From a virus, in IMG/VR virus record IMGVR_UViG_3300006738_000004, positions 36,936 to 100,935 of that record: a stretch of DNA of 64,000 bases; one strand, written 5' to 3'. Positions within the stretch are counted from its first letter, which is position 1, and each line of letters begins with the position of its first letter. Under the pieces are notes generated by a model that was not told the origin of the DNA, searched no databases, and saw only the letters and a program-made list of their open reading frames with translations. Shown in pieces: positions 16,201-64,000 of the stretch. The translations under genes and the position numbers were made by a program.

Positions 16201-19132
16201 AGAGGACATGAACACCCCATGGTTCATCGCCGGGGGCTTTGGATTGTCACGAGTGGACTCAACTGGGGACACCCTCCTCCTCAAGTCTACTTCTTGCACA
16301 ACCCCACCCCTTGGGGAGGCTCCTCTTACCTTCTCTTACAACCGGGCGGTCCCTTACCTTAGCCCCAAGGTGCGGACAGAGGTGGAGGCCACCTTCCAGG
16401 TGGACTCCTCTATTCGGGGGAGCGGCTCTGCCTCCCTGCTGATCGAAGACACAGAGAAAATGGCTGAGGCCACAACGCTGTTCTTTCGAGAGGGGTCCGT
16501 TGCTGGCGTAGCAGGGGATTTCAGAACCCTGCTCGATCTTCCCTTCTGCTCGTTGTCCGGGTTGCTGGACCCTGAGACAGCGGGGTGGGCACCATTCTCC
16601 TGGAACAGTGGCATCAACACAGCCGTTCCTTACGGGCAAAGGCTCGTCGTTTCCCAAGGCGGTATTGGTGGCTCTCAGTGGCAGCAAGAGGCCACCCTTG
16701 ATGCTGCCACGACCCTCTTTTGCATCACGGAGGGGGTGATTTTCGAGGCCACTGTAAAGGTGCTCGCAACTACTCCCGACCTTGGAAAGGCAGGCCCCAG
16801 TTTTGGCGGCCTTGTGCCTTGGGGCGGCGGCCACAGCCAAGTTATGCTGGACTTCCTCTCAGACGGGTTTGTCGGGCTGATCAGGACCAGTGATGCTGCG
16901 ATTCTTGCCTCATTCTATGTGGGTTGGGAGGACGGAACAGAACAGTTCTATCGGCTGGTCTGCGACCCCAGTGCGAACCTTGTAGTTCTCTCGGTAAACG
17001 ACACTGTTGTAGGAACCGTCTCCCTTTCCTCGTTCACCATCGTCCCAGACCTTGACCCGCTCATGTTTAGGACGGTGTTTGGCGTGGTTGGTTCGGCAGT
17101 GTCCCTTTCATCTTGGGACGGCGTCAGCGGCGTTCCCCTGAAGGTTCGCGGAAGAGCAGAGGGGGACATCACCCTGAAGCGCACTCTTGGCATTTACCTC
17201 GGGGGCGGTCGTGAGGACATCAACCATTACCGGATTCCTCGTAGTGACTCGTCAACTGCTGCTAACTCCAGTAGCAGTGCCCAGCCCATCGAGATGGACT
17301 GGACAAACCCCCTGCGGGTGCGGCTGTACCACGACCCTGAATGGGGCGTATGCCTTTACCGTCCCGACCTTCCCCCTCCTCCCTGGCACACCGGGGACTT
17401 TGCTACGGAGACGACTGACCCCAGCGCAGCTTGGATCAGTGTGGAAAGTGCAGACCTCCCCTTCCACAGCACCCTAAAGGGGGCGATCCGTTGGGGGTCC
17501 GTCAACCCCCGCTCCATCACGCAGCAGCGATGGGATTCAGTGAGGTACCGCTTGAGGGGCGCACCCGACGGCTTCGGCATTGCTCCTCAAAACATGCTCC
17601 TGAACCGATCCCACCGGATGACCTCGGGGGAGTTCCTGTACGACACCACCCCTGAAGTGGTCACAGTCAACTCTGCGGGTGCGAGAGAGGTCAATGTACG
17701 GGCTTGCGGAATCTACGCTGACCGGGTTTTTTCGGTCCAGGTGGATGGCGCTTTGCTCCCGTTTGCGGATTGGAACTTTGACTCCGACACCCAACTGCTG
17801 GTGCTGAGAACAGCCCTTCCTTCTGACACCTACCCCGTCACAGTCACGTTTGCCGCTGCCCACCCCATCACCGAAACTTACCTGTGCTCGCAGCCTATTG
17901 AAGGATCGGTCACCCTCCTCAACGAGGGGACACCTCCTATTCCCAAGAGCTTGGATACCGCCAGCATCAGGGAAATCTTGGCAGGTTCCCGCCTGAACGA
18001 CCCCCTGGATGTACTGGATGATGCTGAAACCCTCATCATCAATGACCCCCACCGAGTCATCAAGTTTAGGGAAACGGAGACCTCTCTCTATACGGACCTG
18101 ACGTTCTGCGAGGTGGAAGACGGCGAGAACATCTGGATTTCCACCTTGTGCGACGGGCCGGGGATTGGGGAGGGGTTCTCGGACATCAAGATTGAAGGCA
18201 CCGATTACGCCAACTCCTTCTCAGTGCCGGAAGGTCCCGTGGGTCCATGGGGGAAATCCTCTCCCACAATCAAGGGGTCCGCGACCCACTTCGACCAGTC
18301 TTCTGTGCTCCTTGCTTCAGGCGGTGTGATTCAGGGCGGCGTGCTCGGACCAGGAACTGCGGTTCTACACCCCAACGCGAGAGGTCCTTCAGGTAAGCCT
18401 CCTCCAGGAATGGGCCTGAATCAGGACTTCCGCATTGTCCTCTCTGCCCAGGCCGTATTGACGGATGCGACAGTAGACCCTCCTGTTGAACAAGCCCTGG
18501 AAGAGAGATTCGACACCCAACGCCCTATGGGGGATAACGTACCTCCCACCGAAGCTCTCCCGGTCTCAAGCAACCCGGATGGGGTCCCTGGACTCCACAA
18601 CCTGGGCAAGTGTGTGGCCCGTCTTGAGGACTATGGGTCGGATACCTCCACTTCAAGGCTGGGGCCATGGGGAGCCAAAACGTGGTTCGGGGAAGTCACT
18701 GTCCTGGACAACGCCGCTATCCTGGACGGGGACACCATCACTATCGCGGGGCTTCCGCTCACTGCTCGAATGTTTGCCCCTCCTGGAGGAACGGACGAGT
18801 TCCAGATTGGGATTGATGCTGCGGAGACTGTGGCAAACATTCGAGATGCGATCAACGACACCTCGAACAGCTTTGTGGGTCTGTGTCACTCCCAAGTGGA
18901 ATCACTCCCCATTACAAATCAGGCAAACATCTCATCATCACGAGAGCTTACGTTCGTCCTGAGTAATGGGGCTGCCTTCCGGCCTAACCCCAGGACCGGG
19001 CTGTTCAGCAAACGGTCCCTTCTGGGCGGTGGCGCACAACTGGATGGCTACCAGTTCATTCTGGGCGGGGGTGTTGCACTACCAAGCCCAACTGTTACAG
19101 AGTTCACCATCGAAGCGACTCCCCCGCCATAG
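13295..19132 (+). CDS. Giant virion protein with Gly/Tyr-rich N-terminus and Ig-like domain (1945 aa)
   Basis: The GTG start at 13295 follows AGGGTGA. Residues 7-48 are a Gly/Tyr-rich segment with GGYGGAAYGLSSYGS-type repeats. An SbsA/Ig-like domain follows (TPPRVTGANPIDGFTVEVLF ... SEEM, about residues 55-155). The middle has several beta-rich segments of lectin-like look. An SG..TGVYT module near residue 815 matches the first protein of the window. Near residue 1810, TITIAGLPLTARMF ... AAETVANIRDAIN matches a module in the 1134-aa protein. This architecture suits a very long virion adhesin. No catalytic motif is evident. Confidence 0.75.
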   Translation: MPVFLPGLMGGFGYGGNAYGFSPYGSAAHPRLPVPPGGGYGGAAYGLSSYGSVDITPPRVTGANPIDGFTVEVLFSEEMAHDSHLFLSTNYTFGATYGVPLTTVSVEGGTPGSHGGFTSVIITHTGTTLGGLYLLTVNDGLTGPRDLAGNIVGPPPTNSASFSAYGDPTTFKVEVPPNNDDGHTVLLEFFDSRQQFQPLLPEAEFTPGVDDTVSYSLDTEYPVVPTINSAEQVTALPAKVFLDISPMTKTTYGLTVGPARALTYKAAVLPDVDPDFDGVEVGTGTSTLGEGQLLLTKDQGVTYGWSFGDTSGRLVGGTSFRADINFDAGSAAIYPPMSSSSLFSFTVNDGQRQVTLTLADIAGTKVIDISTPLGAIGSVPAEWGEVGTSDTLSLVRNQKGAFYSVLFNGVPLLTFPVGGVTPTTIPVGVQALLLSAHKVGLFKIAYLGVSASTTVFTDTWNFIHDLAGIFVGSGVLARDRILTDRGPLVRGWGDATPATKDEVAVWVEGVEVEVADVNPYVGEIYPAIPIPLSAPGTVSVALDYIWFSNPPMKMEGLNTRGLTLNKWDRSVGHTPGALAPLPASSMGAFRHHRFPMGTALGPVARKSPKQIGHRYMGFQLGGYSALLNQPTTLLTNQNPHELSVGGLKAQSQATSVLFDGETSPTNASTPWVLHGVDSGAVSANSTYTLVDASAGSYATGTAAFYEQNIDLSLDCHVELGLRLKVDDSAGTYDGVFSGIACGIHDGLHLLMVGFLKIDGVRSLGLLKNASRPDFEESWEVGPSVSGTATTETTIDVPYDPMLNGIKSGSKVRIPSGPQTGVYTIAECGLYLNDLGTVTLVLEEALPEPVHLLGNDTVDLLFDVPWNEEFVSLRSVSLFPAGTASVSIGGSVSGPLAENFEVTAYPADTALLIPAVPKGPQNGVVFWGSVSRPAINTSVWETVQYSVIPKYLVEASHGITVLTEMGVVPEEDMNTPWFIAGGFGLSRVDSTGDTLLLKSTSCTTPPLGEAPLTFSYNRAVPYLSPKVRTEVEATFQVDSSIRGSGSASLLIEDTEKMAEATTLFFREGSVAGVAGDFRTLLDLPFCSLSGLLDPETAGWAPFSWNSGINTAVPYGQRLVVSQGGIGGSQWQQEATLDAATTLFCITEGVIFEATVKVLATTPDLGKAGPSFGGLVPWGGGHSQVMLDFLSDGFVGLIRTSDAAILASFYVGWEDGTEQFYRLVCDPSANLVVLSVNDTVVGTVSLSSFTIVPDLDPLMFRTVFGVVGSAVSLSSWDGVSGVPLKVRGRAEGDITLKRTLGIYLGGGREDINHYRIPRSDSSTAANSSSSAQPIEMDWTNPLRVRLYHDPEWGVCLYRPDLPPPPWHTGDFATETTDPSAAWISVESADLPFHSTLKGAIRWGSVNPRSITQQRWDSVRYRLRGAPDGFGIAPQNMLLNRSHRMTSGEFLYDTTPEVVTVNSAGAREVNVRACGIYADRVFSVQVDGALLPFADWNFDSDTQLLVLRTALPSDTYPVTVTFAAAHPITETYLCSQPIEGSVTLLNEGTPPIPKSLDTASIREILAGSRLNDPLDVLDDAETLIINDPHRVIKFRETETSLYTDLTFCEVEDGENIWISTLCDGPGIGEGFSDIKIEGTDYANSFSVPEGPVGPWGKSSPTIKGSATHFDQSSVLLASGGVIQGGVLGPGTAVLHPNARGPSGKPPPGMGLNQDFRIVLSAQAVLTDATVDPPVEQALEERFDTQRPMGDNVPPTEALPVSSNPDGVPGLHNLGKCVARLEDYGSDTSTSRLGPWGAKTWFGEVTVLDNAAILDGDTITIAGLPLTARMFAPPGGTDEFQIGIDAAETVANIRDAINDTSNSFVGLCHSQVESLPITNQANISSSRELTFVLSNGAAFRPNPRTGLFSKRSLLGGGAQLDGYQFILGGGVALPSPTVTEFTIEATPPP

Positions 19133-45257: not shown

Positions 45258-47969
45258 GTGACCGACTTCTTTGACCAGCTTCAAGAAATGGAAAAGCCCG
45301 TAGTGGAGCGGAAGCTGTGGATGGACTCCGTCACGATGACGGTAGCCACCACTGAGGATCTGGACAGGATCGTTGACGAGTGCATCGCATCTGGGCTTTA
45401 CGGCCTCGACCTGGAAACCACAGGGTTGGATGCTCGGGTCTTCCACACGGAAAACGGGACTCCTTACACCAACGACAAGATCGTTGGCTACTGCATCGCC
45501 CCTAATGAGGACACTGGCTACTACATCCCCGTCCGGCACAAGGAAACGGATACCAATGTGCCTCCCCGCCTCGTAGCCGAAGCCATGAAGAGGTTGGTGG
45601 AATCAGACGCCGTAGCGGTTTTCCACAACGGGAAGTTCGACCAGGAGTTCCTTCAACATGATGACTACGGCCCCATTGGGGAATGGGAGAACCCGAAGGG
45701 GTGGGAAGACACCCTCATTCTCGCCTACTTGCGGAACACACGAGAGAGGAACAAGGGCCTGAAGGCGTTGTCGAAGAACGAGCTTGGCATGGAGATGATT
45801 GAGTTGAAGGAACTCTTCCCTCCCGAAAAGAAGCGGCAAGGGTTCTTCGACTTCTCTACTTTGGACCCTACTTGGCCCCCTTGTGTCTGGTATGCAGCGG
45901 CAGATGCCATTTGCACCTTGCGGCTTTTCCATGTCCTTCATCCCACAGTCATGGAGAGGGACGATCACAACAAGAGCCAACAGACCATTTATGCTCTGGA
46001 GAAGGGGTGCGTAGCAGCTACCCGTTGGATGGAGCGGTGTCGTATCCACATCGACCGGGAAAAGGTCGAGGAGTTGATTCGGCTCGGTCAACAGGAATGG
46101 ATGGACTGCCTTCGGGAAGTCTATGCGGATGCGGAAGGACTGTTGGGACGAGATGTGAGGCCCGGTTGGTTCAGGGTCATGGATGGAGAGGACGCAACCC
46201 TCAAGTTTGACCCCGACATTGTCAGGCCCTCCTACATGGAGGTGCGGGAGAAGGCGAATCAAGTCCCCTTTGAGGCCCCTCCATCTCTCATGAAGTCTGT
46301 GCCCTCACTGGTCAACATCAAGATGCAGGAATCAGTGGCGTTTCCTGCCATCTATGACGTGACCATCCCTGCAAACCTGGGCCTGATGATGCGGGAGTTG
46401 AACGTCCAGGGGTTGCGGCCCACCGAGAAATCAGGACAGGTGAAGACCTCAAAAGATGAGTTGGAGCGGGTGCTGGACAACGCGGGGGATCAGTTCCCCT
46501 TCATGGCGAAGGTCAAGAGGTTCCGCGAAGTTGCCAAGGGGCTTTCCTCCAACCTCTTCCCGGTTTGGCTCGACACAAGCCCAGCCCGTGCCCCCGATGG
46601 GTGTATTTGGGCGGGGTTCAACGGCCACAAGGTAGACACAGGACGGTTCTCCACCCCTACCCCGCGTAAGGGTGCGTTTCATGGGCAGGTGCGGTGGAAT
46701 CTCCACAGCATCCCGGCCACCTACGACAAGTCCAAGCCGTCATGTCTGTTGCGGATGCGGGAGTGCCTTACTGCTCGTCCTGGACGCATCCTGTTCGCTA
46801 TCGACTATTCCGGGGTTGAGCTTCGGATTGTCACCAACATCTCGGGTGAGCCAAAGTGGGTGGAGGAGTTCTTTCGCTGCTCCTCGTGTGACAAACGGTT
46901 CCCCCAAGGGGAGCTTCCTCCCCCCTTCTGCCCGGAATGTAGCTCCGACAAGATTGGAGACATCCACACCCTCACTGCCCTGGCGATCTACGGCGAAAGC
47001 AGCAAGCAACAGCGGCAGAACGCCAAGGCGTTGAACTTTGCGATGTGCTACGGCGGGGGTGGGTTGGCCGCTCAGCGGGCTGTTGGCGTTGGTAAAGAAG
47101 AAGGCCATCGCATCAAGCGCCAGTTCGACAAGACCTATACGGGCTTGCGTGCATGGTGGAAAGAGCAGCACAAGAAAGCCAAGAAGCAGAAGTACGTCAC
47201 GACAGCTTTTGGCCGCAAGTACCCGCTGCCTGACATCGACCATGAGATGGGCGGCTTCCGCTCCAAAGCAGAACGCAACAGCGTGAACGGCCCCGTGCAA
47301 GGAAGCAGTGCCGACATCATGAAGCTGGCGATGGCGTTGCTGCACCGCGACCTCAAGAAGAGAGGGTGGCTCAAAAAGGTTCTGATGACGGTCACCATCC
47401 ATGATGAGTTGGTCTTTGAGATTGAAGAAGACATCGCGGAAGAGGCAATCTTCATCATCGAGGACATCATGGTGAACAGAACGGCTCGCAACCTGCCGTG
47501 GGGAATCCCACTCAAAGTAGACATTGAGTTTGGGAGCGACTGGACAGTGCCGTACAACCTCACCGAGATGGCGCACAACCAAGGTGGAAACTGGACTTCC
47601 CATTTGGCCCAAGTGTTCCCACAGAGCTATGCGGCTTACCTGGAGGCGGGAGGCACAGTTGCGGAGGGGGAAGTCCCCCCACCCGTAAAAAGGAACACGG
47701 CAACCCCGCAACCGACAAGCAGCACCAAGCCAGCCCTTCCTTCCGACATCAGCAACAATGGAAAAGGCGAGGCCCATGTCTACCGGGTGCCTTCCCACAA
47801 GCTCACACCTTCAACTGCGGAGAAGCTCGCCAGAGTCATAGATCGGTGTTCGGGGCGTGGTACGGATGAGCTTCGTGTAGAGACGGACAGCGGTATTGAT
47901 CTTCTAAAGCAAGAGGTACGAGTCTCTTTCATCGAGTTTCAGATCATCGCCCGCTACGAGGGGCTGTGA
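45258..47969 (+). CDS. DNA polymerase, family A, with 3'-5' exonuclease and inserted zinc knuckle
   Basis: The protein has 903 aa with a GTG start. Exonuclease motifs: DLETTGLD (D51/E53), FHNGKFDQEF (about 120) and YAAADAICTLRLF (about 212). Polymerase motifs: A DYSGVELR (about 516), B RQNAKALNFAMCYG (about 586, with Phe at the nucleotide-discriminating position) and C IHDELVFE (about 714). Between A and B a C-x2-C ... C-x2-C knuckle (FRCSSCDKRF, then FCPECSSDK) is inserted. The last 110 residues or so extend beyond the palm/fingers, with a Pro/Thr-rich linker and a small basic end. It replicates the phage genome. Confidence 0.93.
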   Translation: MTDFFDQLQEMEKPVVERKLWMDSVTMTVATTEDLDRIVDECIASGLYGLDLETTGLDARVFHTENGTPYTNDKIVGYCIAPNEDTGYYIPVRHKETDTNVPPRLVAEAMKRLVESDAVAVFHNGKFDQEFLQHDDYGPIGEWENPKGWEDTLILAYLRNTRERNKGLKALSKNELGMEMIELKELFPPEKKRQGFFDFSTLDPTWPPCVWYAAADAICTLRLFHVLHPTVMERDDHNKSQQTIYALEKGCVAATRWMERCRIHIDREKVEELIRLGQQEWMDCLREVYADAEGLLGRDVRPGWFRVMDGEDATLKFDPDIVRPSYMEVREKANQVPFEAPPSLMKSVPSLVNIKMQESVAFPAIYDVTIPANLGLMMRELNVQGLRPTEKSGQVKTSKDELERVLDNAGDQFPFMAKVKRFREVAKGLSSNLFPVWLDTSPARAPDGCIWAGFNGHKVDTGRFSTPTPRKGAFHGQVRWNLHSIPATYDKSKPSCLLRMRECLTARPGRILFAIDYSGVELRIVTNISGEPKWVEEFFRCSSCDKRFPQGELPPPFCPECSSDKIGDIHTLTALAIYGESSKQQRQNAKALNFAMCYGGGGLAAQRAVGVGKEEGHRIKRQFDKTYTGLRAWWKEQHKKAKKQKYVTTAFGRKYPLPDIDHEMGGFRSKAERNSVNGPVQGSSADIMKLAMALLHRDLKKRGWLKKVLMTVTIHDELVFEIEEDIAEEAIFIIEDIMVNRTARNLPWGIPLKVDIEFGSDWTVPYNLTEMAHNQGGNWTSHLAQVFPQSYAAYLEAGGTVAEGEVPPPVKRNTATPQPTSSTKPALPSDISNNGKGEAHVYRVPSHKLTPSTAEKLARVIDRCSGRGTDELRVETDSGIDLLKQEVRVSFIEFQIIARYEGL

Positions 47970-55969: not shown

Positions 55970-56707
55970 ATGGCGACCATCAAGCTAACCGGCCTCGGCT
56001 CTGCCTTCGGCATCACCACAGCAGGGACCGATGACATTTCATCGACCCCTGGTGGGTTGACGGTCGGGGACGCCGATACCGATGACATCACGATCAACGC
56101 TGAGTTCACTTCCAGCTTGATTCCAGACATAGACAACGCGGTAGACCTGGGAAACGGGGATAAGTCGTGGCGTGAGATATGCCTGGGGACCGCGATCAAC
56201 CTCCATGGCACCGGCAATCTCGGCCTGCGGCTTGTGTGGGAAGACCCAACGATTCAGGACGAGACTATCACCCTCCCAGCCAGGAGCGGTCACGTTGCCT
56301 TGGAGGGTTTCCTACCCTCCTACCTGTCCTTCGGGAAGAACAACGCCCAGTCAGCAGACCTCACCGACTTTGAACTCTCCACCGTCAACGGGTCAACGAA
56401 CGCACGGGGGTGGAGGATGCCTGTCCCCGGTGCGGTCACCCACATAAGTTGTCAGTACGATGCGACCGCAAGCGGAGGCACCAACAGTTTCACCCTCGAC
56501 CTCTACAAGAACGGTGTGAAGGAAGTCGGGTACAGCCTCGTTATGAACGACGTCACTTCGGGTGACCAGGGGGACCAAGTGGCGTTCTCGCCGCATCTTC
56601 CCTTTAGTGCTGGTGACAGTCTGACATTGAAACTCACCATGACAGCGGGGCAGGGTGACACGTTCACTATGGATGACTTGGCGTGCCTCTTGAGGGTTCT
56701 GAACTGA
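55970..56707 (+). CDS. Fibre-like structural protein in the replication region (245 aa)
   Basis: The words LIPDIDNAVDLGNGDKSWRE and VGDADTDDITINAEFTSSLI are typical of phage tail-fibre shafts. The last 110 residues (SYLSFGKNNAQSADLTDFEL ... ATASGGTNSFTLDLYKNGVK) resemble the beta-rich tips of the adhesin array 20-50 kb away. So a tail-type gene lies among replication genes. It may be a displaced tip subunit or a separate host-recognition protein. No own promoter copy is seen. Confidence 0.68.
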   Translation: MATIKLTGLGSAFGITTAGTDDISSTPGGLTVGDADTDDITINAEFTSSLIPDIDNAVDLGNGDKSWREICLGTAINLHGTGNLGLRLVWEDPTIQDETITLPARSGHVALEGFLPSYLSFGKNNAQSADLTDFELSTVNGSTNARGWRMPVPGAVTHISCQYDATASGGTNSFTLDLYKNGVKEVGYSLVMNDVTSGDQGDQVAFSPHLPFSAGDSLTLKLTMTAGQGDTFTMDDLACLLRVLN

Positions 56708-58068
56708 TGCCCACCAACGTCGTCAAGACTCCAGCCGATGAGAAGAAGTGGCAGAAAGCCAAAGCCCGTGCAAAAGAGCAGGGGAAGGCCGAGAACTATG
56801 CCTACATCATGGGCATCTACAAGCAGATGAACCCCGAGAGGTTCAAGTCAGCCCAGCGGGTCGCCGCCAGATACGCAGCACAGCTTCCTTTGATGGACCC
56901 CCTCTACAACCTGCGGGAAGCCGCCAAGGAACTGCTCTTGCTGGAGGACCATCTGGGTCATGCCCAGAAGCACTGTCCTGACTGCATCCGTAAACATCTG
57001 CTCACCACGGAGGCACTGCTTGAAGAAGCAGTGCGCCTCGACACAGAAGGGGAGATGTTGGGGTTGCTCTCACCGCTTCCGGCACAGGTACGGGAACTGT
57101 GGACAGCCTATCAAGATGGTCGCCCGAAGCATGAGATCGGGCAAGCCGCCCGTGTTTTGCGTAAGGGACTCGTAGAGGCTTCTGCCGCTGTTCGTGTGGC
57201 TGCCCGAAAAGGGCCGCCCATGCAGATGGGGTCAGCCGCCATGCTCAAGCGTCAGGGCCTGATTCCAGTGGACGTGTTCTTCGGTGAAGCACGCCCCCAC
57301 AAGCGCCCCATCATTGAACTCGGGGACGGCTTGCAGGACCGACGTGGAAAGCTGCACTTCTTCGTGGGTGTTGATGAGCGGGGGAAGGCCATCCTCGCTG
57401 ACACGATGGACAAGGCTAAGCGGCTTCATCGGAAGGTCATCCAAGACCGTAAGCACCACACCACAGCGAAAAACGTGGCTGCGAGATTCCAACTCAAGCA
57501 GGCCAAGCCTGAGAAGGCCCTGTACACAGCCGTTTTTCTCGATGACCCCGATGCTTTGAAGCGGTGGTGGGTGGAAGAGACCGGGATTCCGCTGTTGCCG
57601 AAGCACTACGCCCACCACATGACCATCAAGTATAGGCCCGACGCCAAAGAGGTAGTGGACCTCCCCATCGGTAAACGTGCCCCCCTCAGGATTGTGGGGT
57701 GGGCGGCAGATGCGAAAGGGCAGGCGGTCAAGGTGGAATCATCGGTCAGAAGCACCAAGAAGATTGCCCATGTCACGGTTGCGACCGACGGCACCCGTCC
57801 CGTGTACTCCAACAAGCTCCTGGCTACGGGCATAGAGCCTGCAAGCGGAACGCTCAAGGGGCGCGTTGGCTACAAAAGCACAGACTTGCTTCGGCACAAG
57901 CCCGTCTTCGACCTCAGTGGAACCATCTACGAAGCACTGTCCAAGATGGGGCCACGCAAAGCAATGCTCCCGGAGCAAGTCACAGACGAACGGGACCACG
58001 ACGTAAGACGGGATGACCCAGAAGATGGCGGTGGTTCCGTGCTTCCGGGGAGCGAGGAAGAAGAGTGA
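56707..58068 (+). CDS. Multi-part protein with C-terminal 2H-phosphoesterase-like domain (453 aa)
   Basis: ATG 56707 shares a base with the previous TGA. Residues 5-40 (KTPADEKKWQKAKARAKEQG then ENYAYIMGIYKQM) are a short helical module common in phage proteins. Residues about 65-115 hold LEDHLGHAQKHCPDCIRKHL. From about residue 270, LYTAVFLDDPDALKRWW, HHMTIKY (about 303) and AHVTVAT (about 354) give the two H-x-T-x motifs of the 2H phosphoesterase fold (RNA cyclic phosphodiesterases, LigT, and Acb1-type anti-CBASS enzymes). The tail is acidic. An RNA-end or cyclic-nucleotide hydrolase is likely; the exact substrate is open. Confidence 0.62.
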   Translation: MPTNVVKTPADEKKWQKAKARAKEQGKAENYAYIMGIYKQMNPERFKSAQRVAARYAAQLPLMDPLYNLREAAKELLLLEDHLGHAQKHCPDCIRKHLLTTEALLEEAVRLDTEGEMLGLLSPLPAQVRELWTAYQDGRPKHEIGQAARVLRKGLVEASAAVRVAARKGPPMQMGSAAMLKRQGLIPVDVFFGEARPHKRPIIELGDGLQDRRGKLHFFVGVDERGKAILADTMDKAKRLHRKVIQDRKHHTTAKNVAARFQLKQAKPEKALYTAVFLDDPDALKRWWVEETGIPLLPKHYAHHMTIKYRPDAKEVVDLPIGKRAPLRIVGWAADAKGQAVKVESSVRSTKKIAHVTVATDGTRPVYSNKLLATGIEPASGTLKGRVGYKSTDLLRHKPVFDLSGTIYEALSKMGPRKAMLPEQVTDERDHDVRRDDPEDGGGSVLPGSEEEE

Positions 58069-60325: not shown

Positions 60326-60952
60326 ATGTCGGTTGATAGCAACCCTTTTGGGGGCACAGGCGCAGGAAGCACCTACACGCCAATGACAGATGTGGAACGA
60401 GAGGCTGTCTCTCGTTTGGTCGAGGCAGGCAGGTTGCGGGTCCATGTCGTGGGTTGGGGTGTTGTCAATAGCCCTCGGGTCATCATCGGGGACCTGCGTA
60501 TCGGCATCCAGTTCCGACTGGACTTCAATGCTCCAGCAGTCCCGCAACCCAACCACTACTTCGACCTTGAGCTTAGGACGGACTCAGGGCTTCTCCTCTA
60601 CAAGGAGAGGCAGCCGACCATCTTCAACTACAAGCCTGTCCAAATCTGTGCGGGGATGTTCCTGGACTTGGTGTGGGACATCGCTATCCGGCACATGGAC
60701 CCCAAGATCGTGAAGGCCCTTGTGCCAGGAGCAACGGGCTTCACATCCAGATGGCAAGACCGGGACACTGGGGAGATGACCCTAAAGGGGAACACCCGGC
60801 ACATGACCGCAGAGACCCTTCAACGGTTGAAGCAGGTTCGAGTCATGGAAGAGGTCTCCAAGGCCGACACCAAAGAGATGGCCGCAAAAGCCACCGCCAA
60901 AGCTGAGGGCCTTGAGCTTGCGGCGAAGAAGGCGCTCATCAAGCTCAAGTAG
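60326..60952 (+). CDS. Hypothetical protein (208 aa), last of the replication operon
   Basis: ATG 60326 follows GGAGAGGGATAACG; a longer frame from 60212 overlaps the cold-shock gene and lacks a ribosome site. Words VHVVGWGVVNSPRVIIGDLR, YFDLELRTDSGLLLYKERQP and a basic helical C-terminus (KEMAAKATAKAEGLELAAKK) suggest an ordered N-terminal domain and a long helix. No known family. A perfect GC-rich hairpin follows at 61019-61043. Confidence 0.62.
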   Translation: MSVDSNPFGGTGAGSTYTPMTDVEREAVSRLVEAGRLRVHVVGWGVVNSPRVIIGDLRIGIQFRLDFNAPAVPQPNHYFDLELRTDSGLLLYKERQPTIFNYKPVQICAGMFLDLVWDIAIRHMDPKIVKALVPGATGFTSRWQDRDTGEMTLKGNTRHMTAETLQRLKQVRVMEEVSKADTKEMAAKATAKAEGLELAAKKALIKLK

Positions 60953-61018
60953 GTGAGCAACTTTGACTTCATCCCATCCCATCCCTGGTACCAAGGGAGG
61001 TGGGAACCACCCCTTCCA

Positions 61019-61043
61019 AAGGCGGCCCCCATGTGGCCGCCTT
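61019..61043 (+). terminator. Perfect 9-bp terminator-like hairpin
   Basis: AAGGCGGCC-cccatgt-GGCCGCCTT forms a perfect 9-bp stem with a 7-nt loop, 67 bp after the stop of the last replication-operon gene. There is no T run beyond CTTCTACT, so it may work with a factor or as an RNA-end stabiliser. Confidence 0.65.
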
Positions 61044-61330
61044 CTACTCGGAGGCTCCCCAAAAAAGCGGCCCCAGATCGCTCAAAGCAGACGCTGGTTG
61101 CAACAACGCGGTGTGCTCAGAAAAGCTCAGTCTGAACTTCCTCTTTTACGTCGAAAAGGGTGTTTTCGATAAGCAAGGTTGAACCTGGGTTTTCGAGGGG
61201 TGTTTTTTGAGCCTCAGAAATCTCTGAGCTTACGGACAGTTCCCCGGCTCGAATCATGCTTCAGGAACCAGTGATGTCGCTCACGGACCTTCACGGACTG
61301 GATCTCACCGGCTGCTAAAATCCTGCTGAC

Positions 61331-61364
61331 GGGGGGGGTTCCATTTGGGCGGCCTCACCGTAGA
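61331..61364 (+). promoter_or_regulatory. Phage-type promoter motif in the gene-free region
   Basis: GGGGGGGG plus TTC (61331-61341), 16 nt, then CCGTAGA (61358-61364). It points right into the gene-free stretch. It supports transcription from about 61370. Confidence 0.65.
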
Positions 61365-61567
61365 GAACACAGAGGGCTTCCCCTTCATCCCACGGGGTGG
61401 AGAACAGTCCTCAAGCCTCCCCCGGCTCTAAGCGGGTTCGGTCTCTGCCGACCCTAAACGCAGCACCCTCTCACTGGTGTAAAAAGGGAGCGCCTTCTCC
61501 CTGGTGTGAAACGGAGCGTGAGCCTACCGGACGTTATACCGGAGGCGTAGCCGACTACGTTAGTGTT

Positions 61568-61642
61568 GGGGTTCCAACCCACCTTACGGGGGCGTGTGAC
61601 CACGGGCGATACCGGGGGGTTCCAACCCACCTTACGGGGGCG
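61568..61642 (+). repeat. Pair of identical 27-bp boxes
   Basis: Identical units at 61568-61594 and 61616-61642 begin GGGGTTCCAACCCACCTTAC and end GGGGGCG. GGGTTCCAACCC is an inverted repeat (GGGTT-cc-AACCC). The first bases echo the -35-like part of the promoter motif, but no CCGTAnA lies 16 nt on. They could be regulator sites or RNA hairpins. Confidence 0.7.
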
Positions 61643-61792
61643 CGGCTGCGAAATGCGAGAAGACGCAGGGGTTGGCCTCCCTTATCGGGCCACCCACTTT
61701 CATTTACCCTTCCACAGCGCCGTTAGAGTCGGTGACCAGGGGATAGGCAACCCCGTTGAGTTGTGGGAGGGTTCCCTTCAAATGGCGGGAAT

Positions 61793-61824
61793 GGGGGGTT
61801 CCCCTTTTCCTCTTCGCCCGTAGA
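61793..61824 (+). promoter_or_regulatory. Second phage-type promoter motif in the gene-free region
   Basis: GGGGGGTTC (61793-61801), 16 nt, then CCGTAGA (61818-61824). No gene follows on the + strand before the convergent glutamine synthetase at 62038. Confidence 0.65.
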
Positions 61825-61830
61825 GAGACT

Positions 61831-61990
61831 AAGCCCACGATAGTGCCCGGTGACTTACCTTCTTCAAGACCGGATTCAGGCTTCGTGTAAGAAGGCGGTC
61901 CACGCGACACAGTGGAACGGCCCCCAGTAGGCCCGACGTTGCCGACGTTGCAGCGAGGCCAAACAGGGTTGCAGGTGCTGCAAAGCCCCC
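61831..61990 (+). ncRNA. Candidate structured RNA downstream of the promoter at 61793
   Basis: The predicted transcript can form CCTTCTT/AAGAAGG (61858-61864 with 61889-61895), CCAC/GTGG around GCGACACA, and near its end GGG-TTGCAG-gtg-CTGCAA-aGCCC (61966-61988), a strong hairpin that might end it. No usable open frame was seen. No known RNA family was recognised. A regulatory or host-directed RNA is possible. Confidence 0.35.
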
Positions 61991-62037
61991 TCTCCTAAAG
62001 CCCCGTTGATCTGGACGGCACAAGGGAGGTGGTTTCG

Positions 62038-63126
62038 TTATTCAGGCGCGTGCAGCGGCGAGTTACCGGGAGTGGACGGGTCTGTGAAGTCGAAATGGGT
62101 TGTCTTCTCTGAAGCCAACTTGGCGGTCTTCAGCATCTCCAACGCTACCTCGTAGGGGCAAGCGTTGGCGTTAGGGCGTCGATCTTCCAGGTAGCCATAG
62201 CCATCCTTGGCTGTTCCTATCGGGATGCGGATGGAGGCCGTGCGGTCGCTGACGCCGTACCGGAACTCGTTGTGGGAACAGGTCTCGTGCTTCCCGGTCA
62301 AACGCATCTCGATGCCATCCCCGTACACAGCGAGATGAGCAGCCCTACGCTCCGGGGTTCCAGCGGCTTCGCACCATGCTTTGATGTGCTCCATGCCTCC
62401 TTCTTCACGCATTGCTGCGGTGGAGAAGTTGGTGTGCATCCCACTCCCGTTCCAATCACCGGGAACGGGCTTCGGATCGAGCGTGGCGTTGATGCCATGG
62501 TCTTCGCCCAGGCGGTACAGCAGCCAGCGGGCAAACCAGAGATGGTCTCCTGCTTCAAGGGCAGTGCAAGGACCGATTTGGAACTCCCATTGACCCGGCA
62601 TCACCTCAGCGTTGATGCCGCTGATCTTCAGCCCTGCCTCAAAGCAAGCCTGGAGATGGTCCTCGATAAGCTCCCGTCCGTACACTTGGTCGGCACCGGC
62701 ACCGCAATAGTACGGGCCTTGGGCAGGTGGAAATCGTCTGTCCTCCCCGAAACCGAGAGGTCGTGCCCCGTCAAAGAGGACATGCTCCTGCTCCATGCCA
62801 AACCACGCATCCGTGAACCCCTCTGCTTCCAGGAAATCGCGCACCGCAGCCCGCTTGTTGGTGGGGTGGGGGGTGACACCATCAGCCTCGTAGACTTCGC
62901 ACAAGGCGAGGAAGTGGCCCCTGCCTCGAACGGGGTCAATGACGATCCGCACGGGCTTCAGGATGCAGTCTGAAGAGTCTCCACTGGCTTGCCCTGTGGA
63001 ACTTCCATCGAAGTTCCAGTCAGGGAAGGTCATTTCTTCCCCCTCCGGTTCGGCCAGCACCTTGGTTTTTCCACGGATGGTGCGTGTTGGGAAGGTGCCG
63101 TCAGGCCATAGGTAAGTGACAAACAT
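62038..63126 (-). CDS. Glutamine synthetase, GSII (eukaryote-like) type
   Basis: The protein has 362 aa from ATG 63126 (GGAG upstream), the usual GSII length. Family words: FDGSSTGQA (about 39-47), FGMEQEH (metal-binding Glu pair, about 113/115), GINAEVMPGQWEFQIGP (about 171-187), PVPGDWNGSGMHTN (ammonium/glutamate-site His, about 232), HETCSHNEFRYG (about 281), DRTASIRIP and GYLEDRRPNANACPYEV. It makes glutamine from glutamate, ammonia and ATP. All catalytic residues I can place are present, so it should be active. It follows the FmdB-type gene with a 25-bp gap. A phage copy would be an auxiliary metabolic gene. Confidence 0.92.
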   Translation of the reverse strand: MFVTYLWPDGTFPTRTIRGKTKVLAEPEGEEMTFPDWNFDGSSTGQASGDSSDCILKPVRIVIDPVRGRGHFLALCEVYEADGVTPHPTNKRAAVRDFLEAEGFTDAWFGMEQEHVLFDGARPLGFGEDRRFPPAQGPYYCGAGADQVYGRELIEDHLQACFEAGLKISGINAEVMPGQWEFQIGPCTALEAGDHLWFARWLLYRLGEDHGINATLDPKPVPGDWNGSGMHTNFSTAAMREEGGMEHIKAWCEAAGTPERRAAHLAVYGDGIEMRLTGKHETCSHNEFRYGVSDRTASIRIPIGTAKDGYGYLEDRRPNANACPYEVALEMLKTAKLASEKTTHFDFTDPSTPGNSPLHAPE

Positions 63127-63151
63127 GCTCGCTCCAGGTGGTTTACGCCGT

Positions 63152-63337
63152 CTAACCAGCGTACCCATCTTCAGCCCAGCCCCCGCCTTTCAAAGCAAAG
63201 GAGGTCTGAGAGATCATCTTCTTACAGTTCTTGGAGTCGCATTCGGGGCAACTCTGGGGGTTTTCACGCTCGTCGTGCTTCAGGAGCCTCTCGAACCTCT
63301 TCTCGCATTTCTCGCATCGGTACTCGAACAGAGGCAT
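63152..63337 (-). CDS. FmdB-family zinc-ribbon protein (61 aa)
   Basis: ATG 63337 has GGAGGGGATCC upstream. The sequence starts MPLFEYRCEKCEKRFERLLK, has CPECDSKNCKK in the middle and FALKGGGWAEDGYAG at the end, which is the full FmdB pattern (two Cys pairs plus the GGGW..DGY tail). These putative regulators bind zinc; their role is not well known. It is 25 bp before the glutamine synthetase and surely co-transcribed, so it may control or assist that gene. A longer frame to 63508 is a shadow. Confidence 0.88.
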   Translation of the reverse strand: MPLFEYRCEKCEKRFERLLKHDERENPQSCPECDSKNCKKMISQTSFALKGGGWAEDGYAG

Positions 63338-63402
63338 GGATCCCCTCCTTGCTTCCACAATACCGATAAGGTGCCTATTCACGCCGACCGACGGGAGAGA
63401 AG

Positions 63403-64000
63403 ATGGCACGAACCATTCGAGAGATAGTCCACGAGCAGATGCAGATGCAGATGCAGCCGCTGAAGCTCCAGCCGGATTACGGAAGTTCAGAGGGGGCAGC
63501 AGTGCCACGCGGGGAAGACCGCCAAAAGCAAGCCTTCAACAAAGAGAACGGCCCTGAGCTACTGGGCCAACTGCTTCGCGTGCTCAAGAGCAACGGCATG
63601 GACGACGCACTACAAGCTATCAAAAGCTGTGGCCTCACCCGTAAGCTCAACGATGAGTGGATGGGAGACACCCGGAACCGCCAGAAGCGCAAGCGTGATC
63701 GGCGTGCAGGCCAGCAATCCCTTTCAGCCCTGAGTAACGATTTTCACGATGTCCATGACGCCGTTGACATGACCAGGAAGACCTACAGACCGTTGGCGTT
63801 GGTGCTTGGGCGACTGGCAAAGCCGAGAGGGTCGATGGACGACCCCATCTTTAGGTCGGGGTATCTGGAAGACGTAGACGAAGCCATCGAGCAAATCCAA
63901 GACATCGAGTGGGCGGCACCCCGGTTGTACATGGTCCAGAGCGCACTGTCGGATGCGCTTTCGGAGTTGGTCCCTCTTTCCAAGAAGCTCAGAAGGCTGC
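63403..64000 (+). CDS. Hypothetical phage protein, 3' end outside the window
   Basis: ATG 63403 follows GGGAGAGAAG and the frame stays open to the last base (199 codons visible). It starts MARTIREIVHEQMQMQMQPL, with a QM repeat caused by CAGATG repeats near 63438-63452. It has a basic centre (RNRQKRKRDRRAGQQSLSAL) and continues helical (LEDVDEAIEQIQDIEWAAPR). No domain is recognised. It diverges from the FmdB-glutamine synthetase pair across a 65-bp gap. Confidence 0.75.
   Translation, partial: MARTIREIVHEQMQMQMQPLKLQPDYGSSEGAAVPRGEDRQKQAFNKENGPELLGQLLRVLKSNGMDDALQAIKSCGLTRKLNDEWMGDTRNRQKRKRDRRAGQQSLSALSNDFHDVHDAVDMTRKTYRPLALVLGRLAKPRGSMDDPIFRSGYLEDVDEAIEQIQDIEWAAPRLYMVQSALSDALSELVPLSKKLRRL

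Follow-up and report, generated by a model that had tools for sequence, protein, structure and literature searches.

A class II glutamine synthetase gene linked to an FmdB-family gene in a lineage of large phages

Gene organization of the locus and identity of the enzyme

We analyzed a stretch of 64,000 nucleotides, hereafter the window, which comprises bases 36936–100935 of a 100,935-base virus record from IMG/VR, i.e. the right end of that record. About 660 bases from this end, a two-gene unit occupies positions 62038–63337 of the minus strand. Both the outer coordinates and the gene content put forward in the original prediction were confirmed, the former by an ORF check and the latter by profile matches identifying a class II glutamine synthetase (GSII) and a zinc-ribbon protein of the FmdB family. 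At the E-values obtained, chance is no concern for either match. The following features, all on the minus strand, make up the unit and its upstream region; L002 denotes the closest relative of the window by synteny, which is carried on record G001.

62038–63126, minus strand: GSII, 362 aa from the likely start; assigned by Pfam, PDB, catalytic residues and an AlphaFold model
63132–63135, minus strand: Shine-Dalgarno-like GGAG ahead of the likely GSII start, read from the sequence
63152–63337, minus strand: leading gene of the unit, encoding a 61-aa zinc-ribbon protein of the FmdB family; TIGR02605 and PF09723 above their cut-offs, conserved in relatives
63342–63350, minus strand: strong Shine-Dalgarno sequence AAGGAGGGG ahead of FmdB, read from the sequence
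63355–63380, minus strand: 26-nt element upstream of FmdB, distinct from the phage promoter motif described below; L002 has the identical sequence and L196 retains part of it

The open frame of GSII extends from 62038 to 63168, corresponding to 376 aa when counted from its opening. Methionine 15, encoded at 63126, is the likely start, since the homolog in L002 begins there and GGAG precedes it. FmdB is thus separated from GSII by a gap of 25 bases with the likely start, or of -16 with the ORF start, and both genes probably share one transcript. FmdB scored 64.3 bits with TIGR02605 (cut-off 31.3) and contains two CxxC motifs (C8/C11 and C30/C33). It shares the MPxYEYxCxxC start, the second CxxC and the SFxLKGGGW tail with phage FmdB zinc ribbons elsewhere (TIGR02605, phrog_1076). 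The 26-nt element was also seen at about 9960–9985 of L196, a phage contig that carries FmdB and lacks GSII in the stretch examined.

The enzyme was expected to be full-length with an intact active site, and this was borne out. Both Pfam domains, Gln-synt_N and Gln-synt_C (PF00120/PF03951), exceeded their cut-offs (47.4 and 76.2 bits). When the protein was used as query against the PDB, class II chains scored 322–406 bits and class I chains at most 51 bits, the best solved relative being glutamine synthetase 4bax of Streptomyces coelicolor (2e-120, 405.6 bits). An AlphaFold model of the monomer (pLDDT 86, pTM 0.86) likewise had 4bax as its best PDB match (TM 0.86/0.93), and the top 50 Foldseek matches were class II enzymes without exception. 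The fold, two-domain architecture, length and all active-site residues are shared with S. coelicolor GlnII, at 54% identity in the structural alignment. In contrast to bacterial GlnII, the enzyme is phage-encoded, belongs to a separate phage-only clade (see below) and scored 447.1 bits with the NCBI GlnII equivalog model NF041605; as the curated cut-off of this model is 500, we assign the protein to the class II glutamine synthetases but not to this equivalog.

We then compared residues binding ammonium, glutamate, ATP or metal in mammalian glutamine synthetase, omitting the row for Y162, which tracks Y171. All 19 positions checked are identical in the window GSII. Eighteen of them are invariant across 86 non-redundant viral GSII proteins, while R262 is kept in 85 of the 86. 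These residues bear on the idea that the protein is a GSII-like ligase acting on another amine, for instance in a γ-glutamylamide or modified-nucleotide pathway. Glutamine synthetase-like ligases with such substrates do exist, as exemplified by γ-glutamylputrescine synthetase, whose model weakly matches the window enzyme. However, models of other ligases reached only 40–71 bits as compared to 447 for GlnII, and the ammonium-site residues D63, S66 and E305 as well as every checked glutamate and ATP residue are as in the mammalian enzyme, which renders a different amine substrate very improbable. We therefore regard the gene as encoding a genuine, intact class II glutamine synthetase, for which ATP-dependent activity is predicted.

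Phage descent of the contig and of GSII

The original prediction was open to refutation by a chimeric contig or by host chromosomal DNA, and it called for phage sequence on both sides of the unit. Such sequence is provided by G001, a record of 180,576 bases. When reversed, this record and the contig are collinear over 98 kb, between contig position 3 kb and the right end of the contig at 100.9 kb. In G001 the FmdB-GSII pair is internal (83.4–84.8 kb), some 83 kb from the left end, with phage sequence to either side. A terminase match is present in G001, and the window itself additionally encodes an SNF2-type helicase, a DnaB-like helicase, a primase zinc-ribbon protein and a DNA polymerase. 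A weak match to a contractile-sheath initiator was detected left of the window. Collinearity with G001, the terminase and the phage replication genes together make chimerism or host origin of this DNA very unlikely; the collinearity rules out these possibilities as far as sequence can.

Two minor observations concern the terminase and the DNA polymerase. The terminase matches in three records contain one in-frame stop each: G001 at 17083–18663 (TAG), G014 at 92403–93992 (TAG) and G012 at 75949–77391 (TGA). An intron, a frameshift or recoding may each account for these stops. The nearest deposited phage record for the DNA polymerase (window 45258–47969) is LR745208.1 (485 kb) with 49% identity; judged by this gene, close relatives of the phage are absent from deposited records.

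A phylogeny of the enzyme against host and phage homologs had also been proposed. In a tree of 65 proteins, the window GSII grouped with L007, L002, L003, L008, L005 and L017 in a phage clade of seven members (support 100/97), which is nested in a phage-only GSII clade of 19 members (100/99). The identical seven were grouped at SH-aLRT 99 in a tree of 125 rows. Viral GSII as a whole did not form a single clade in either tree, suggesting that there were probably at least two transfers of the gene between cellular and phage genomes. As a side observation, the N-terminus of the phage GSII in L025 (9995–11005) could not be aligned with the others, possibly reflecting a frameshift or a replacement.

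The original prediction had read the missing phage promoter as a hint at later acquisition of the unit. Its position near the contig end, on the strand opposite to its neighbors and without the phage promoter motif, would indeed fit a recently arrived host gene or a chimeric contig. However, the window GSII shares 78% identity with the closest phage GSII as compared to 59% with the closest cellular one found, the phage-only clade is deep and well supported, and GC and GC3 of the gene resemble the rest of the genome. Moreover, the unit is located at the same place in G001, where the promoter is missing too, so that its absence says nothing about the age of the gene. The phylogeny, the composition and the gene order shared with G001 all argue against late acquisition, and to a recent arrival or a chimera we assign next to no probability. 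dN/dS was 0.11 between the window and L002 and 0.20 between L005 and L017, rough values as dS is near saturation, showing that the gene appears to be under purifying selection. By these criteria, GSII is to be seen as an old phage-borne gene of a known enzyme class, long kept in one lineage of large phages.

The statement that phages seldom carry glutamine synthetase proved weaker than worded, as the gene occurs in many viral contigs, in huge-phage records and in published phages (PMC12619734). Relatives of GSII were found on 106 viral contigs in one scan, and a profile-based scan yielded at least 588 IMG/VR viral contigs encoding them. Deposited phage records gave 13 GSII matches including four records of 635–735 kb; two of these four appear to represent the same genome. 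These huge-phage records (LR756501/LR756503 of 735 kb, LR756502 and LR745206) encode more distant relatives that are 44–50% identical to the window GSII.

In the open literature, glutamine synthetase is reported for nine of the moraphages (PMC12619734) and for phages from anaerobic digesters (PMC11944383), and its occurrence in marine viromes has been reviewed (PMC9083009). Like the enzyme studied here, these are phage-encoded and a role in nitrogen metabolism has been proposed for them; the passages that describe them name neither a glutamine synthetase class nor a linkage to FmdB. Openly available literature contained no report of FmdB-GSII linkage in phages that we could find. Glutamine synthetases of phages are already known, and new here are the well-supported phage-only GSII clade and its linkage to FmdB. 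The window GSII is a real phage metabolic gene of a class found in many phages and represents no new kind of system.

Linkage of FmdB and transcription signals around the unit

In each of the seven clade members, FmdB is located no more than 2.3 kb from GSII. The gaps between both genes, in bases, are:

window: -16
L002: 31
L003: 103
L008: 11
L005: 413
L007: 2243
L017: 2202

FmdB also lies 1.6 kb from GSII in L015/L018 of the sister clade. As the seven members share ancestry, they attest to one conserved linkage and not to seven independent events. One of 80 bacterial GSII loci (L124) had an FmdB match nearby. In a control addressing 80 other phage FmdB loci, GSII was present in none within the stretches fetched, setting these FmdB genes apart from that of the window.

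The original prediction suggested that FmdB may regulate GSII. A dedicated regulator forming a nitrogen-response module with the enzyme would be in agreement with the proximity in all seven members, in five of which FmdB is upstream on the same strand at a distance of at most 413 bases, and with preservation of the linkage although many flanking genes differ among clade members; in addition, PHROGs designates another matching family as FmdB-like transcriptional regulator. However, the adjacency has been preserved in just one clade, and phages frequently carry FmdB at sites remote from GSII, as the control illustrates. Zinc-ribbon family matches occurred in 17 of 20 phage records with GSII (13 over cut-off), and beyond this clade they were mostly distant from GSII. 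Finally, L017 encodes FmdB and GSII on different strands, with 2.2 kb between them. A dedicated regulatory role of FmdB is therefore rather unlikely, and the gene arrangement points to a linked neighbor of GSII, i.e. an association.

To assess transcription signals, we used the phage promoter motif GGGGGTTC-N17-CGTARAKAG, presumed to be the promoter meant in the original prediction. The window contains 10 matches as compared to 0.62 expected, an excess that is partly by construction because four of the window sites served to define the motif. The same motif occurs about 40 times in G001, a record not used for deriving it. A motif scan placed sites in the window as follows:

61334, 61794, 51596 and 54547, plus strand: phage promoter motif
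2294, 20046, 21557, 39212 and 54239, minus strand: phage promoter motif

Several of these sites are found 38–54 bases ahead of genes. The CGTA box presumably resembles promoters recognized by ECF-type sigma factors; a Pfam search of ten small ORFs from the record detected no sigma factor. As had been noted, no match precedes FmdB-GSII on the minus strand. A sigma-70 promoter was likewise not found within 60900–64000, including the region ahead of FmdB. Three features are located on the other side of the unit, downstream of GSII:

61334–61367, plus strand: phage promoter motif located downstream of GSII and directed toward it, not followed by a convincing ORF (motif scan)
61674–62037, no strand assigned: noncoding segment immediately adjoining the 3' end of GSII, conserved in G001 with about 90% identity over ungapped positions
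61794–61827, plus strand: second phage promoter motif aimed at GSII from downstream (motif scan)

Behind the promoter at 61794, no convincing gene on the same strand begins before 63403. The counterparts of both sites in G001 are at 85004 and 86025, the ortholog of 61794 being 85004 (minus strand). Between the window and G001, about 62% of the synonymous sites of GSII differ, and other intergenic stretches are 74–92% identical. Folding gave no support for a stable RNA structure in the 3' segment (z-scores -0.6, -0.25 and -0.12), and one compensatory pair was observed in the two sequences compared. No known RNA family was matched in the window at gathering thresholds, and two exact-match scans for further homologs of the segment returned the known relative only. 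With phage promoters pointing into it, the segment could be an RNA gene or a regulatory element, which we put forward as a lead only. That FmdB-GSII is an old dedicated nitrogen module later shut off by convergent transcription, the downstream promoters producing an antisense or small RNA from 61832–62037, seems improbable to us.

Proposed role of the phage enzyme

We consider it likely that GSII is a phage-borne enzyme long kept in a lineage of large phages, where, judged from its class, it would supply glutamine and escape adenylylation. During infection, phage GSII would convert glutamate, ammonium and ATP to glutamine, which may serve as nitrogen donor for synthesis of purines, CTP and amino sugars while phage DNA is being produced in the cell. 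The adenylylation motif NLYDLP of class I enzymes (GSI) is absent from the window GSII, and host adenylylation would therefore not switch it off. The phage enzyme could stay active when the adenylylation cascade shuts down host GSI, and a bypass of this control, as originally proposed, is a reasonable inference from enzyme class. None of three families searched as glutamine consumers (GATase, GATase_6 and QueC) was matched in the partial genome containing the window or in G001, so that use of the glutamine by host enzymes must be assumed. In other phages, isolated matches to GATase and GATase_6 were obtained, and none to QueC over cut-off.

GSII thus represents a stable part of one large-phage lineage rather than a stray host gene, and nitrogen assimilation during infection becomes a testable trait with a defined gene set. 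For the poorly known FmdB family, the clade-specific link offers a concrete partner to test. A further observation concerns a protein of 461 aa encoded at 56683–58068 of the window: its residues ~169–259 are 57–67% identical to parts of other phage proteins encoded near GSII in L003 and L005, and it has a weak match, below cut-off, to the phosphodiesterase domain of fungal tRNA ligase.
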